In this document: in pieces, positions 826-37,749 of the stretch
Position numbering within the stretch: position 1 is the stretch's first letter
How the letters are laid out: every line of letters begins with the position of its first letter
From: a virus
Reading direction: 5' to 3' (one strand)
Virus record (IMG/VR): IMGVR_UViG_3300021138_000088
Coordinates: 1 to 37,749 of that record
DNA length: 37,749 nucleotides
Position numbers and translations under genes: made by a program
Notes under the pieces: model-generated
Database searches by the model: none
Told to the model about the DNA's origin: nothing
Seen by the model: the letters and a program-made list of their open reading frames with translations, nothing else

Positions 826-1211
826 GCTGCTACCCCATCGCATGGGCTTTCATTAATCCATTCGCCTGATTTGTCTAAAAATATGTAGGGTTTTTCGTAG
901 TCGTGAAACGTGGCCGTAACATTTATTTTTGACGCTCCATGATGATTAAGTGATTCAACAACTGAATTTATTGTGTTAACGCTTGGCCCTTCTCCCCACT
1001 CGATCAAACATAAGCAATCCTTAACAGGCCATGTTAGTTCGTGTGGAAATTGGTCATGACGAAGGACTAACGCACTAAATGCAGCGTGTTTGTTCCATGC
1101 CTCGGCTCGTTTCATTGATTCTCCACCCACACAGATAATCACTAAATCGGGCTTGTTGTTCCATTTGATACGCTTTTCTAAACTTAATCCAAAAACAGGT
1201 AGTTTCTTCAT
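822..1211 (-). CDS. Hypothetical protein
   Basis: A 129-residue protein of no recognised family. It has an N-terminal hydrophobic strand (PDLVIICVGG) and a Trp-rich middle (HELTWPVKDCLCLIEWGEG) but no signal peptide or membrane segment. ATG at 1211 overlaps the helicase TGA (ATGA) and its TGA overlaps the next ATG. It is therefore translationally coupled in the early operon between the helicase and the zinc-finger gene. A DNA-metabolism role is only suggested by position. Confidence 0.65.
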   Translation of the reverse strand: MKKLPVFGLSLEKRIKWNNKPDLVIICVGGESMKRAEAWNKHAAFSALVLRHDQFPHELTWPVKDCLCLIEWGEGPSVNTINSVVESLNHHGASKINVTATFHDYEKPYIFLDKSGEWINESPCDGVAA

Positions 1212-3655
1212 GCTGACACCCTATTTTTCATGCCTTTTGCATAGCGCATATTCAAATTAGTTATTTTTCTTGATATGGCGTCTGATACCGGAACCAAAAT
1301 TGATTTTTCAAATGTCATGCCGGCTTCTGGATCAAGTCCGGTAATGCCTTTGTATAAATGCTTTGAACGTGCTTTTTGATTGATTGGCGTACTATGCAAT
1401 TTAGAATGACTACAGCATTGATTCCAAATATCAGTTTTTTTCATTACAGGGGAATTTTTAGACTTTCCAATTTGTATTTCTTCAAGACTTCCAGCGACTG
1501 CAATAACCTGATTAACTCTTGCTCGCGTATATCCGCAATGGGTGCATGTGTCGCCTCGTGTTTCCCATAATCCACCGCATTTAGGACATTTAGCCGCCTC
1601 TTTTTCGGTTTGAGTGGGTTCTTTTTTTGGTTTTTCTGCCCCATCATCTAAAGCATGTACCCCATTTTCAAAAAGATCATCCCATTGATCTCTAAACCTT
1701 AAAAAATTACCTGAATGATCTAACCAAATCGCCGCCGTTTTTTCCCCGTGAGGTCTCATGATCCGACCTAGCTGTTGAACATGGCTAGAAAATGACTTTG
1801 AAAACGGCCTGGCTGATATCCCTATCATTACGTCAGCACAGTTGTGCACTAGAAGTCCATTGCAAGTGAAGCTATTTCTTGGTCCGGCGTTGAGAATGTC
1901 CCATACACGCCCTTTGGCTTGTCCGACTTCTTGTTGTATCTTTCTATTATCATTTCCGGCGTGAAACCCATTGAAAACAGATTCCTGAACGTCTTGTCTG
2001 CATACTTTATTTCCGGGTGATCTATTTTGAACTTGTGCATCATTGATACCCATCCCCCTCTTCGAGTATTGCAATTCTGCAACTGCCGACTTGCCCACCT
2101 TAAATTCCCGTCCTCGTAGTGACCATTGTTTTTTATTCTGTCTATCTGCGTGCTTTTGCTCTGCTTTACTATTCCTAGGTTTTGCGCTATCCAGTCCGCG
2201 CATTCTCTTGGAGTATTGAATCTGAACTCTATCCCACGCCCCCCATAATTTTTGTAATGCTTGTTTGAAGGATTTTGACAACGCTGCCTCATGTTTTCGC
2301 ACCGTCTTACTATCCAGATAGGCGTTTTTTCCTTGCTCACGCAACTCTTGCATCCTGCAAACTTCTCGTTGATTAAAACATTTCTTATGATGTTTAATTT
2401 TTCTCCACAATCTACGCACTCGCATTGATAATAAAGAACGCTTGACCACTTCTTTTTCCCCGGTTTTCTTATTAATTCCGGTGAAATAATTTTCATGCTC
2501 TTGAATTGCTTCCCTACCATTTCCGGTTGTAATGATTTCAATTTGTTTTTCGGCGCAAACCCCAAAGGGTAGCCAGCCTTCTGCTGTTTTGACTCTATGA
2601 TCTCTGGTTGCTGTAAGTCCGCAGTAAGTAATAACATCTTTTTCTCCACGATAAATAGCGCCGCCGTGATTGACATATTCGCGCCCATCCCATACTTTAT
2701 CATTTAACGAAAGTTTGTCAATAGGTATTAATCCATTATTTGTATTTATTAAGCTTCCCTCCAGTATGCAGTCAAAACCCTTTGTCAAAATATCTGTTGC
2801 TATCAACCCATGAATTGAGCTGTCAGGGCGTGAAAATTCTTTTAAAACTGCTTCTTTTTCTTCATCCGTATCTTTGTAACTGATTGATACAAAGTTGTAG
2901 CCTGCTTCTTTAAATTTTAAAGATAAATCTTGCCCATGCGCTACACCCGCACAAAAAACGATTGTTTTCTTAGGTCCATTGAATATTTCATAGGTTTTTT
3001 TAATCCATTCCTGAACAATATCGCCCGTGATTTTAATGCCTCGCTCAGTAACATCATCAGATGACCATTCGCCCATTTTCTTTTTTGCGCCGTCCATATC
3101 AATTTCTTTGGCGATAAAGACACGAAGGGGTGCAAGGCTGCCATTTTCCACTAACTCTTTAGTCGTCGATTTACTTATAACGTTGGTATAAATTGCCCCT
3201 AATCCTTTGGTGAATGGGCTTGCAGATAATCCAATGACTCTAATCTCAGGACGGTTTTTAATTAGCTCTCTGATTGATTCGCGTGAATTATGTGCCTCGT
3301 CAATGATAAGAAGATTCATACCTGGGAAAGATTCCCGTTTTTCTAAAGTTTGAGCTGAACATATTTGTATGTGGCTTTCTGGATTATATCTCCAGTGACC
3401 AGCCATCATGACGCCGTGATCTATATCGTATTTATCAAGTCGTTGGCTAGTTTGATCTACCAATACCCGTCTATCCATAACCATAGCTCCCTTATTTCCA
3501 GCTACTGAGGTTTTATCAAGCATTGAAATAGCTATTTCTGTTTTGCCGCCGCCTGTTGGCAGATAAAGCATTTGTGCTCTATGACCTGCTCTAAACCCTG
3601 CGCGTACAGCATCAATAGTATCATGCTGATAATCTCGAAGCGATAAACTAGCCAT
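1208..3655 (-). CDS. SF2 DEAH-type DNA helicase interrupted by an intein
   Basis: An 815-residue precursor; after removing the intein (residues 296-605) the helicase is about 505 residues. Superfamily 2 motifs appear in order: Q-like RDYQ (7-10), Walker A PTGGGKT (33-39), DEAH box IIDEAH (117-122), motif III SASP (144-147), motif V ATDILTKGFD (286-295, cut by the intein), and motif VI QQLGRIMRP (627-635). A C-terminal zinc ribbon has CPKC (690-693) and CTHC (704-707). The layout resembles RadD- or restriction-helicase-like phage replication helicases. It starts 8 nt inside the DUF3102 gene's 3' end. No polymerase or primase is visible, so this is probably the phage's main replication or repair helicase. 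Activity requires splicing. Confidence 0.93.
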   Translation of the reverse strand: MASLSLRDYQHDTIDAVRAGFRAGHRAQMLYLPTGGGKTEIAISMLDKTSVAGNKGAMVMDRRVLVDQTSQRLDKYDIDHGVMMAGHWRYNPESHIQICSAQTLEKRESFPGMNLLIIDEAHNSRESIRELIKNRPEIRVIGLSASPFTKGLGAIYTNVISKSTTKELVENGSLAPLRVFIAKEIDMDGAKKKMGEWSSDDVTERGIKITGDIVQEWIKKTYEIFNGPKKTIVFCAGVAHGQDLSLKFKEAGYNFVSISYKDTDEEKEAVLKEFSRPDSSIHGLIATDILTKGFDCILEGSLINTNNGLIPIDKLSLNDKVWDGREYVNHGGAIYRGEKDVITYCGLTATRDHRVKTAEGWLPFGVCAEKQIEIITTGNGREAIQEHENYFTGINKKTGEKEVVKRSLLSMRVRRLWRKIKHHKKCFNQREVCRMQELREQGKNAYLDSKTVRKHEAALSKSFKQALQKLWGAWDRVQIQYSKRMRGLDSAKPRNSKAEQKHADRQNKKQWSLRGREFKVGKSAVAELQYSKRGMGINDAQVQNRSPGNKVCRQDVQESVFNGFHAGNDNRKIQQEVGQAKGRVWDILNAGPRNSFTCNGLLVHNCADVMIGISARPFSKSFSSHVQQLGRIMRPHGEKTAAIWLDHSGNFLRFRDQWDDLFENGVHALDDGAEKPKKEPTQTEKEAAKCPKCGGLWETRGDTCTHCGYTRARVNQVIAVAGSLEEIQIGKSKNSPVMKKTDIWNQCCSHSKLHSTPINQKARSKHLYKGITGLDPEAGMTFEKSILVPVSDAISRKITNLNMRYAKGMKNRVSA
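1841..2770 (-). other. Intein coding segment inside helicase motif V
   Basis: A 310-residue in-frame insertion, Cys296 to Asn605. Splicing blocks visible: block A starting CILEGSLINTNNG (Cys1); block B with Thr-x-x-His in TATRDHRVK (T350, H353); block F RVWDILNAGPRNSFTC; block G LLVHN, followed by Cys606 as the +1 nucleophile. All catalytic residues for class 1 splicing (Cys1, block B His, penultimate His, terminal Asn, Cys+1) are present, so splicing is expected. Removal joins KGFD to CADVMIGISARPF and rebuilds helicase motif V. Between blocks B and F the intein frame has no recognisable in-frame endonuclease, only about 200 basic, Gln-rich residues. That stretch overlaps an HNH gene in another frame. 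Confidence 0.93.
1849..2520 (-). CDS. HNH homing endonuclease encoded out of frame inside the intein
   Basis: A 223-residue reading frame on the same strand as the helicase but in a different frame, wholly inside the intein. It has a four-Cys zinc site (CECVDCG with CKSC), then RRCENMRQRCQNPSNKHYKN, YGGRGIEF, and the HNH-like IDRIKNNGHYEDGNLRWA followed by NCNTRR. This pattern is common in phage HNH homing endonucleases. The start is unclear: ATG at 2520 or ATG at 2496 are plausible with weak ribosome sites, and the frame stays open up to 2703. The stop lies 8 nt before the intein end, so the C-terminus overlaps intein blocks F and G. It is expected to cut intein-less helicase alleles and mobilise the intein. 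Translation inside another frame is inferred. Confidence 0.8.
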   Translation of the reverse strand: MVGKQFKSMKIISPELIRKPGKKKWSSVLYYQCECVDCGEKLNIIRNVLINEKFAGCKSCVSKEKTPIWIVRRCENMRQRCQNPSNKHYKNYGGRGIEFRFNTPRECADWIAQNLGIVKQSKSTQIDRIKNNGHYEDGNLRWASRQLQNCNTRRGGWVSMMHKFKIDHPEIKYADKTFRNLFSMGFTPEMIIERYNKKSDKPKGVYGTFSTPDQEIASLAMDF

Positions 3656-6831: not shown

Positions 6832-6965
6832 TGAAAATCTTGGCACGTTGGGACTTTGAGCATAATCACGAGCCAAGATTTAAAAATGAATTTTATTTAT
6901 CAGAATATGGTAACTGCTATGCGAAAGCAGAAACCATTACTTATATTACACGGGAACCGTTATGA
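6831..6965 (+). CDS. Short hypothetical protein
   Basis: A 44-residue protein starting MKILARWDFEHNHEPRF and ending TYITREPL. ATG at 6831 overlaps the preceding TAA (TAATG), and its stop TGA is entered by the ERF gene ATG (6962), so it is coupled on both sides. Rich in aromatic and charged residues; no motif seen. Confidence 0.55.
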   Translation: MKILARWDFEHNHEPRFKNEFYLSEYGNCYAKAETITYITREPL

Positions 6966-7594
6966 ATAAAAGCGAAACTACTGCTGAGCTTGCAAAAGCT
7001 CTTAGTAAAGCACAGGGAGAGATTGTTCACGCAATCAAAGATACAAAAGGGGCATTTAGCGGTAAGTATGCCACGCTTGCTGGTGTAATAGATGCAGCAA
7101 AGAAACCATTGTCGGATAACGGATTAAGCGTATCTCAAATTGTTGATGTTACAGAAAATGGTGATGTAATTTTAGAAACAATTTTAATGCACACGTCTGG
7201 TGAGTTCTTAACTGGTAAATACCCCATTAAACCCATTAAACAAGACCCGCAAGGTTTTGGAAGTGCTTTATCGTATGCCCGTAGATACTGTTTTAGCTCA
7301 ATAGTTGGTGTTGCTGCTGATGACGACGACGGGCAAGCGGCATCAGAGCCAGACAAACCATCAACAAACAATCAACAAAAACCGCCCATACAAGTGCAAA
7401 TACAAGTTCCACCCAAAAATCCAGAATTATCGCATGAAGATGAAGTTCGATATTCAAACGAACTTGAACAAGCTAAAACCATGCAAGAGCTTGGAAAGGC
7501 TTGGGCATCAATTCCAAATGAATTAAAACCTTATTTTGAATCATATAAAAACACTTTGAAAGCAAAGTTTTTACCACCTAAAGAGGCTGCATAA
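6962..7594 (+). CDS. erf: ERF-family single-strand annealing protein
   Basis: A 210-residue recombinase of the ERF superfamily, which anneals complementary ssDNA in phage recombination and genome circularisation. The core shows GKYATLAGVIDAAKKPL (34-50), GLSVSQ (54-59), LMHTSGEFLTG and the signature GSALSYARRY (100-109) followed by SSIVGVAADDDDG. The C-terminal part (125-165) is a Pro/Gln/Lys linker before a short helical tail. It shares its operon with the coiled-coil protein (stop directly followed by its ATG) and SSB, the usual partner set for phage annealing systems. Confidence 0.9.
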   Translation: MNKSETTAELAKALSKAQGEIVHAIKDTKGAFSGKYATLAGVIDAAKKPLSDNGLSVSQIVDVTENGDVILETILMHTSGEFLTGKYPIKPIKQDPQGFGSALSYARRYCFSSIVGVAADDDDGQAASEPDKPSTNNQQKPPIQVQIQVPPKNPELSHEDEVRYSNELEQAKTMQELGKAWASIPNELKPYFESYKNTLKAKFLPPKEAA

Positions 7595-14144: not shown

Positions 14145-14888
14145 TCATGCTGCCTCTATCCTTTTCTTTGCAATTTCAAAATAACCAGAATCCAATTCCA
14201 TGCCGATAAATGAGCGGTTAAGGTTTTTTGCTGCTACTCCGGTTGAGCCGCTTCCCATTGTGTTGTCTAACACTGTTTCACCTTCATTAGTGTAGGTTTT
14301 GATTAGGTATTCAAGTAGTGCTACTGGTTTTTGGGTTGGGTGAATCCCTCTTTTTGCGTTTGAAAACTCTAGTATAGAGACAGGGTAATAGCAATCATTT
14401 ATAGATTTACTCATTTCCATGTTTAAAATTTTACTTATACCGCCTCCTTTTGTTCTCATTTTACCTTTTCGCATTTTTGGATTGTAAAAATGTTTTTTAT
14501 TACTGAAAACACAAATATCCTCATGCGTTTTTAATGGTTGATGCTTGGCTAATAATGGATTTCCGCTTATTTTTTTATCCCAAACCCAGCAATATTTAAA
14601 CCACTTAGGATTACTCATAACAAGCGCACTGGTAAATGGTTGAGAGCCAAACAACACTATTGCCCCATTAGGTTTAATAATCCGCTTGTAGTGCGCCCAC
14701 AATGGCTCAAATGGAATAACTGTGTCCCACTTACAAGCTGTTATTCCTATTCAGCCGTAGGGCAAATCGCACAAAACCATATCAATACTTCCATCCGCTA
14801 TATCCTGCATAGCTTTTAAACAGTCTTCATTGATTAAGGTAATATGTGATGATTGCCCTACGGACTCGTCACCTTTAATATTAGTCAT
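14145..14888 (-). pseudogene. DNA methyltransferase broken by an in-frame TGA
   Basis: The 744-nt frame codes for a beta-type adenine/cytosine-N4 methyltransferase with motif IV DLPYG near residue 45, then FGSQPFTSALVMSN, HPTQKPVALLEYLI and a C-terminal motif I region VLDNTMGSGSTG. A TGA at 14753-14751 directly follows DLPYG; after three further codons the frame resumes with TACKWDTVIPFEPLW. Without readthrough, translation yields a 45-residue fragment, and an internal start (for example TTG at 14702) gives a C-terminal piece without motif IV. The N-terminal 45 codons may have been supplied by the upstream homing endonuclease element, since a second copy of this region lies at 15588-15677. 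Probably inactive. Confidence 0.75.
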
Positions 14889-15523
14889 ATATAAAATAAA
14901 TCGCTTTTAGTATTTGTTTCTAGTTTAAATTTTTCCCATTCATCATGATTCATTTCAGCTTTAGCTCTATTTTCAAACCATGTTAAAAATTGAAGATTAT
15001 CAAGGCTCCAATTTTCCCCATTAAACTTACTTACTTTGTGATCTAGTGAAGGTAAATACCACTTGTTCTTTCCTGTTTCTTGCCATTTGTCATATATTCG
15101 ATTGAATTGTTCATCAAAATAAAACTTGTCAAGAAACGACTTTCTTACATAATCATCAAAACCTAAATAATTTTTATGCTTTGATAGGTAGTGAGTTAAA
15201 AACTTCAATTTCTCATAATTAGGGTAAAGACTTATCAAATCTATAGATGTCTTTAATTTGCCCTTCATGTTTTTCCGTTTAAAGACTTCATCCATTTTTA
15301 ACCCTTTTTGCCAAGACACATAACCCATAGCTTTTCTAGCATTAACTATCTTTTGCTTGTGCTCATCAGTCATTGGTTTACGGCGTTGTTTTTCGGTAAT
15401 CGGTATGTTGTGTTTGTTTAGTATTCTCTTAATCCTATGATGATCTGTGGAGAAGTGATCTGCCACCATTCTTAAAGTCCAAAGTTCATCGACGTATAAT
15501 CTTATAACTTCCTGCTCATTCAT
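14885..15523 (-). CDS. HNH homing endonuclease inserted in the methyltransferase locus
   Basis: A 212-residue protein. An N-terminal helix-turn-helix (about 1-42, RMVADHFSTDHHRIKRILNK) is followed by a modular DNA-binding stretch RRKPMTDEHKQKIVNARKAMG (48-67) like NUMOD repeats. The nuclease centre is SLDHKVSKFNGENWSLDNLQFL (159-180; D161, H162, N176) and ENRAK (184-188). It is flanked by two N-terminal copies of a methyltransferase gene. Its stop overlaps the ATG of the downstream copy (ATGA). A GGGA ribosome site sits in the arm of a 14-bp hairpin, so translation is likely regulated. Confidence 0.85.
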   Translation of the reverse strand: MNEQEVIRLYVDELWTLRMVADHFSTDHHRIKRILNKHNIPITEKQRRKPMTDEHKQKIVNARKAMGYVSWQKGLKMDEVFKRKNMKGKLKTSIDLISLYPNYEKLKFLTHYLSKHKNYLGFDDYVRKSFLDKFYFDEQFNRIYDKWQETGKNKWYLPSLDHKVSKFNGENWSLDNLQFLTWFENRAKAEMNHDEWEKFKLETNTKSDLFYI

Positions 15524-15531
15524 TGCTTATT

Positions 15532-15582
15532 ATCCCAGTTACATGTTGATTGCATACTTATATTATACCATGTAACTGGGAT
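15532..15582 (-). promoter_or_regulatory. Hairpin with internal promoter upstream of the homing endonuclease
   Basis: On the minus strand ATCCCAGTTACATG (15582-15569) pairs perfectly with CATGTAACTGGGAT (15545-15532). The 3' arm contains the endonuclease ribosome site (GGGAT, 8 nt before ATG). The loop contains TATAAT (15567-15562), with GTGAAA 18 nt upstream as a weak -35. Long transcripts from upstream would hide the ribosome site; transcripts starting in the loop (about 15555) would lack the 5' arm and leave it free. This mirrors the known arrangement at T4 I-TevI. Confidence 0.65.
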
Positions 15583-15587
15583 ATTTT

Positions 15588-15677
15588 TCACGGTAAATCA
15601 CACAAAATCATATCAATAGAGCCGTCAGGAATATCCTTCATTAGCTCTAAACAATCGCCGTGCCTTAAGTCGATCAT
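15588..15677 (-). pseudogene. Truncated methyltransferase N-terminus (29 codons)
   Basis: It encodes MIDLRHGDCLELMKDIPDGS, then IDMILCDLP, and stops at TGA where motif IV DLPYG should continue. It aligns with residues 20-44 of the downstream copy (EDCLKAMQDIADGSIDMVLCDLPYG), but the DNA has diverged. ATG overlaps the stop of the upstream gene (TGATG), as expected for the original operon start. The break point is the presumed insertion site of the homing endonuclease element. Confidence 0.8.
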
Positions 15678-15925
15678 CAATGCCTCGTAAAATAGTAGGT
15701 AACAAACGCAAAAACCGCACTAACTACAAAAGTTACGCCCCCCATAAAGCCTTTTTGACGGTCAAGACTTGACGTAATCAGCTCTAAACTGGCTTCAATT
15801 CTCTCGATTGATTTTTCAATTTTCGCTTTATCTTCGGTTAGCAACCTTGAAAGATTTTCGTGCTTATCCTCCATGCGAGTCATTCTTGATTCTATCTGAC
15901 TAAATCGGCAATCTATATCACTCAT
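15677..15925 (-). CDS. Coiled-coil protein with C-terminal membrane helix (lysis module)
   Basis: An 82-residue protein: coiled-coil heptads over residues 5-58 (FSQIESRMTRMEDKHENLSR) and one membrane helix at 60-79 (MGGVTFVVSAVFAFVTYYF). The shape resembles XhlA-like holin accessory proteins. It lies between a lipoprotein gene and the endolysin side of the lysis block. A holin-assisting or Rz-like role is inferred. Confidence 0.6.
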   Translation of the reverse strand: MSDIDCRFSQIESRMTRMEDKHENLSRLLTEDKAKIEKSIERIEASLELITSSLDRQKGFMGGVTFVVSAVFAFVTYYFTRH

Positions 15926-37696: not shown

Positions 37697-37749
37697 GCTT
37701 TGATAAACCCGTTTTTTAGCCAATATTCTTGAGTCCGTTTTACACCCTC
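37693..37749 (-). CDS. ybcO: YbcO/DUF1364-like protein, C-terminal part (cut by window end)
   Basis: The last 18 codons, EGVKRTQEYWLKNGFIKA, match the C-terminus of E. coli YbcO (EGMARTQVIWLKEGVIKA). The N-terminal part is at 1-224. Joining base 1 to base 37749 directly shifts the frame by one, so one base (or four) is missing at the junction. TGA overlaps the rusA ATG. Confidence 0.85.
   Translation of the reverse strand, partial: EGVKRTQEYWLKNGFIKA

Follow-up and report, generated by a model that had tools for sequence, protein, structure and literature searches.

The window analysed here, the whole 37,749-nucleotide stretch of viral DNA, encodes on its minus strand an 815-aa SF2 helicase precursor (1208-3655), an open reading frame matching the Pfam models ResIII and Helicase_C and the helicase family phrog_16. 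The helicase gene is interrupted by a 310-aa intein (C296-N605 of the precursor; 1841-2770, minus strand), which separates the N-extein (2771-3655) from the C-extein (1208-1840) and is inserted after helicase motif V (ATDILTKGFD/CADVMIG). Another contig, L001 (IMGVR_UViG_3300021137_001216), matches the window without a difference, and in it base 1 and base 37749 are linked through 4 additional bases; the window therefore probably represents a whole phage genome in circularly permuted form.

The original prediction of an intein with intact splicing blocks was borne out. The element presents a cysteine nucleophile at position 1, a block B T-x-x-H motif (TRDH, T55-H58; 2597-2608, minus strand), a block F (VWDILNAGPRNSF, containing DILNAG; 1868-1906, minus strand) and a block G (1841-1864, minus strand) that ends in HN and is followed by a cysteine at the +1 position. 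All the key residues (C1, T55 and H58, D291, H309, N310 and Cys+1) were invariant or nearly so among 66 relatives, with T55, H58, D291 and G296 conserved in every sequence of the alignment. In an AF2 model of the intein frame the splicing blocks reached pLDDT values of 91-97, and Foldseek searches with this model matched the Ssp DnaB, Npu DnaE and RecA inteins, indicating a Hint fold. Every match in profile searches with the window intein was itself an intein, but these matches were weak (E 0.015-0.06); the TIGR01445 model (intein_Nterm) recognised just one of the 66 family inteins, and a search against plasmids returned no match to the window intein. An intein-free homologue was found in the phage helicase MW202426, which is 63% identical across the insertion site, presents ATDILTKGFDVPDTMIG at the junction and has Val at the +1 position where the window has Cys, showing that the host protein is continuous without the insert. 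The window intein is hence a Hint-fold protein-splicing element, predicted from its conserved residues and fold to be capable of splicing.

The filler that joins blocks B and F in the intein frame (1907-2515, minus strand) had been described as basic, Gln-rich and devoid of endonuclease motifs. In agreement with this description, a Pfam search of the intein frame between the splicing blocks detected no domain, and most of the filler was modelled at pLDDT 38-50 and is predicted to be disordered. The endonuclease is instead encoded in the +1 frame, in which a complete HNH protein with a 223-aa core occupies positions 1849-2520 and the frame remains open upstream as far as 2703. This protein matched the HNH endonuclease family phrog_374 (E 1.4e-21), and the same HNH PHROGs (374/3377) were matched by all 59 aligned HNH relatives. 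It contains a four-Cys site of the form C-x2-C ... C-x2-C, which probably binds zinc (2341-2418, minus strand; C35, C38, C57 and C60), and an HNH core (KNYGGRGIEF ... IDRIKNNGHYEDGNLRWA; 2092-2253, minus strand) in which Y92, G93, R128, Y135 and N139 stand out; both sets of residues were invariant in the 59 HNHs. The HNH assignment and the four-Cys site of the original prediction were thus upheld, whereas its start at 2520 was not (see below). The AF2 model of the core had a mean pLDDT of 89.5, and a Foldseek search of the HNH model against the PDB gave no confident match. The protein is presumably a homing-type nuclease, and cleavage and homing are predicted activities.

Elsewhere in the window, a free-standing HNH-like open reading frame (14885-15523) was found within a DNA methyltransferase gene (14145-15680, minus strand). 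It is preceded upstream by methylase N-terminal sequence that ends in DLP, and is followed downstream by a second N-terminus (DCLKAMQDIADGSIDMVLCDLPYG), then by an in-frame TAG and the remainder of the N6_N4_Mtase domain. This arrangement is suggestive of another nuclease insertion, placed at the DPPY motif. The window also encodes a YbcO-type putative nuclease (3-236) and an ERF recombinase (6962-7594), and the recombination genes of this phage could be used for homing.

Conservation of the two-frame layout

Separate tblastn searches with the intein frame and with the HNH frame retrieved the same phage loci. The gene that hosts the element in these loci is not a helicase but PolA, in Gardnerella phage vB_Gva_AB1 and in Streptococcus Javan phages. 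A search based on the splicing-block alignment returned at least 558 relatives in IMG/VR, of which 80 were kept, and 25 in GTDB genomes. Within the family, the host genes were phage PolA and SF2 helicases; the relatives are inserted at several PolA sites and at helicase motif VI, a position distinct from the one after motif V occupied in the window.

The HNH was located in the inteins of these relatives by an HMM scan over all six frames (E<1e-5). Among the matches listed, it lay in +1 in every full-size locus with an HNH match (108 loci, 93 distinct sequences) apart from L017 (see below), and no family member presented an HNH in frame 0. The same relation between frames was obtained when the search started from the HNH. 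The separation of splicing and nuclease by frame, initially proposed for this one locus, is therefore supported and holds across a whole family. The DNA polymerase intein of EBPR siphovirus 2 (L017, 2057-2848) encodes its HNH in frame +2 and constitutes a separate case of overprinting.

Natural mini-inteins of 121-168 aa (e.g. L014-L016, L195-L199 and L203) were also detected. The filler is absent from them, and the HNH is either missing or reduced to a remnant, such as the 52-codon stub of L014 and a weak stub in L197. Since full-size queries were used to rank the full-size set by similarity, the ratio of full-size to mini-inteins is not a census.

Predicted translation start and selection in the two frames

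Throughout the family, a Shine-Dalgarno (SD)/ATG unit was found written into the intein codons shortly ahead of block B. In the larger of the two clades of nested HNHs this unit takes the form of AAGGAGGTnATnnnnTATG over K-E-V-I-T-Y at intein codon 48, or of GGAGAAA.ATG at codon 44. The window belongs to the codon-44 class, in the same register as L030, L031, L035, L059, L065 and L070, and presents the SD TGGAGA (2643-2648, minus strand; cgTGGAGAaaaagATG) 5 nt upstream of ATG 2637. In 39 of 62 loci, the combination of SD and ATG scored better than 95% of the shuffles that kept the intein protein unchanged. Protection of the +1 frame pointed to the same region, with 7 stops against 82.5 expected over the roughly 36 codons that precede the MVG column of the alignment, and no protection beyond them (165 stops against 126 expected). 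At the MVG column itself, a conserved M, L or V ahead of VG that corresponds to the originally predicted start at 2520, the large clade showed no SD (mean -0.53, control -3.11), and ATG was common, as were TTG, CTG and GTG, with a few loci lacking any NTG. A start at 2520 was consequently rejected as the main start of this clade, given the lack of an SD and the selection for an open frame upstream. In the smaller HHR clade, an NTG at approximately codon 66 is preceded by an SD about 8 nt upstream (mean -7.25, control -3.26).

The ribosome-binding site (RBS) of the window is of only moderate strength (-6.4 kcal/mol), marginally below that of one ATG farther upstream (-6.9), and the start was chosen by homology. 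On this basis, the HNH coding sequence most likely begins at ATG 2637 and is predicted to yield a 262-aa product (1849-2637, minus strand). Because the embedded SD and ATG supply a start of its own, synthesis of the nuclease is predicted to proceed by internal initiation, independently of splicing.

The intein frame had been reported to remain free of stops over the DNA encoding the HNH. The stops expected in this frame were estimated by recoding each HNH with synonymous codons taken from its own host gene. None was observed in 92 loci, against a mean of 12.7 expected, and the window, also with none, was expected to contain 25.1 on average, which places its open intein frame beyond chance. In the equivalent frame, 52 free-standing HNH relatives contained between 2 and 38 stops (mean 14.1), compared to none in 89 nested HNHs. 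The notion that the +1 frame was favoured for its few stops was rejected, since in the free-standing HNHs this frame contains 14.1 stops and the other frame 7.0.

Substitution rates were obtained by classifying changes in both frames in 13 non-overlapping pairs of relatives. The HNH frame displayed an omega of 0.20-0.23, and the filler one of 0.95-1.10. In the same kind of pairs, the pN/pS of the intein frame was 0.25 for blocks A-B and 0.52 for blocks F-G. As originally noted, the HNH C-terminus overlaps blocks F and G, with its stop codon inside block G, and in this overlap constraint falls on the intein frame. These rates indicate that both the HNH and the splicing blocks function as proteins, and that the filler is a by-product required only to avoid stops. 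With an omega of about 1 and predicted disorder, most of the filler was rejected as a candidate for a second functional domain.

The protected +1 frame upstream of the conserved HNH N-terminus is also what would be needed if ribosomes left the intein frame by programmed frameshifting, a process that would generate a fusion of N-extein, IntN and HNH and no free HNH. The open stretch, however, ends approximately at the SD/ATG unit and stops exceed expectation farther upstream, and the HHR clade uses a different NTG endowed with a good SD; we therefore regard frameshifting as unlikely. Less likely still is a decaying or inactive element in which the intein frame matters and the HNH is a relic. 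The stubs found in mini-inteins illustrate that the HNH can be lost, but its omega of about 0.2 in recent pairs denotes strong purifying selection, and its Cys and core residues do not vary across 59 sequences.

The original prediction had cautioned about a sequencing frameshift. That caution is the sole point in favour of an error of sequencing or assembly, or of a self-splicing RNA intron mistaken for an intein, and we attach practically no probability to either. A second public contig is 100% identical to the window over the intein/HNH region, which argues strongly against a sequencing frameshift, and the layout is common to more than 100 relatives; the artefact was rejected on these grounds. 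A group I or group II intron was likewise rejected, as no Rfam intron was detected in the window and both the intein fold and its blocks were recovered.

Proposed mechanism, known systems and origins

The evidence from sequence and modelling leads us to propose, with considerable confidence, that the element is a mobile intein of phages whose nuclease is encoded by overprinting. Translation of the helicase mRNA would take place in two frames. Ribosomes in frame 0 would make the helicase-intein precursor, whose short splicing halves (blocks A-B and F-G) would fold into a self-excising Hint domain, with the long middle stretch tolerated as a disordered loop. In the +1 frame, initiation at the RBS hidden in the codons just ahead of block B would yield a free-standing four-Cys HNH nuclease terminating inside block G. 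This nuclease would presumably cut intein-less alleles, into which the whole element would then be copied by recombination. Selection would maintain the HNH protein and the splicing blocks, and the filler would need only to stay free of stops.

In canonical homing-endonuclease inteins (LAGLIDADG or in-frame HNH, e.g. PI-SceI), the nuclease forms one of the domains of the intein protein itself. The window shares with them blocks A, B, F and G and a nuclease coding region between B and F, but its nuclease is a separate protein from another frame and its intein frame contains no endonuclease. From these comparisons, the element is not a canonical homing-endonuclease intein but an intein together with an HNH gene. 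Group I introns with HNH open reading frames (I-HmuI type) also have a nuclease translated apart from the host gene; the window element differs in that its removal would take place at the protein level. Dassa et al. (2009; cited in PMC10448857) reportedly described fractured genes, in which a free-standing homing endonuclease gene lies between the halves of a split intein. There, as in the window, the nuclease is a protein of its own placed between IntN and IntC; the window intein, in contrast, is a continuous open reading frame that overlaps its nuclease gene.

Several relatives lie close to the fractured state. In L109, L111 and L113 the intein frame contains stops and IntC starts with its own SD and start codon; these genes are therefore split, with two open reading frames flanking the HNH. 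The intein frame of L147 is likewise broken, with no clear IntC start observed. A further locus, G001 (C1:1347-2299), presents IntN, HNH and IntC with stops in the intein frame, and combines this split copy with an overprinted intein in nearby sequence.

No description of an intein with an out-of-frame nuclease was found in the literature examined; a preprint said to deal with actinobacteriophage inteins of 'non-canonical architecture' (10.1101/2025.01.02.630785) lies outside that coverage. In phage APSE-1 (AF157835), the P46 coding sequence is annotated inside the intein of DNA polymerase P45 and corresponds to the +1 HNH, but the record notes only overlapping open reading frames and describes neither an intein nor an HNH. 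The closest published case is the out-of-frame HNH of the ShiLan domain, described in mycobacteriophage DNA methylases (Arsenault, Gosselin and Gogarten 2025, PMC11855218). This insertion is open in the host frame, and a different frame on that strand codes for an HNH endonuclease that has zinc-finger-like sites. Its host-frame translation has no known function and no splicing motifs, it is thought to be retained, and no RBS was found (PMC11855218). The window resembles the ShiLan domain in carrying an out-of-frame HNH within an insert open in the host frame; it differs in that its host frame encodes a bona fide intein with splicing motifs, and in that its HNH lies in +1 relative to the host and its family shares an embedded RBS.

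The nested HNHs separate into two clades that differ in start site and have free-standing genes between them, and the well-supported branches of the HNH tree force at least two changes. This distribution may reflect two captures, or one capture and one escape. Within the large clade, splicing-block and HNH distances were correlated (Mantel r 0.43, p 0.001), as expected under joint inheritance. We lean towards a broader view, held with some reserve, in which these elements constitute a widespread class of phage inteins whose homing endonuclease has moved out of frame, with its own RBS in conserved intein codons, having arisen at least twice (the two clades, plus the +2 case) and serving as a stepping stone between mini-, overprinted and split inteins.

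Inteins had been regarded as carrying the nuclease within their own polypeptide, as one of its domains. Here, a single piece of DNA appears to encode two unrelated functional proteins, and the nuclease could be made without relying on splicing. Current models mostly miss this intein family, and the polymerases and helicases that carry it are annotated as plain enzymes. The embedded RBS offers a concrete answer to the question, raised by the ShiLan domain, of how a hidden HNH is translated. The recent origin of each clade, the neutral 'host' frame and the natural deletion controls make overprinting directly measurable, and the family ranks among the clearer phage dual-coding systems. It also suggests a possible origin for split inteins with intervening nuclease genes.
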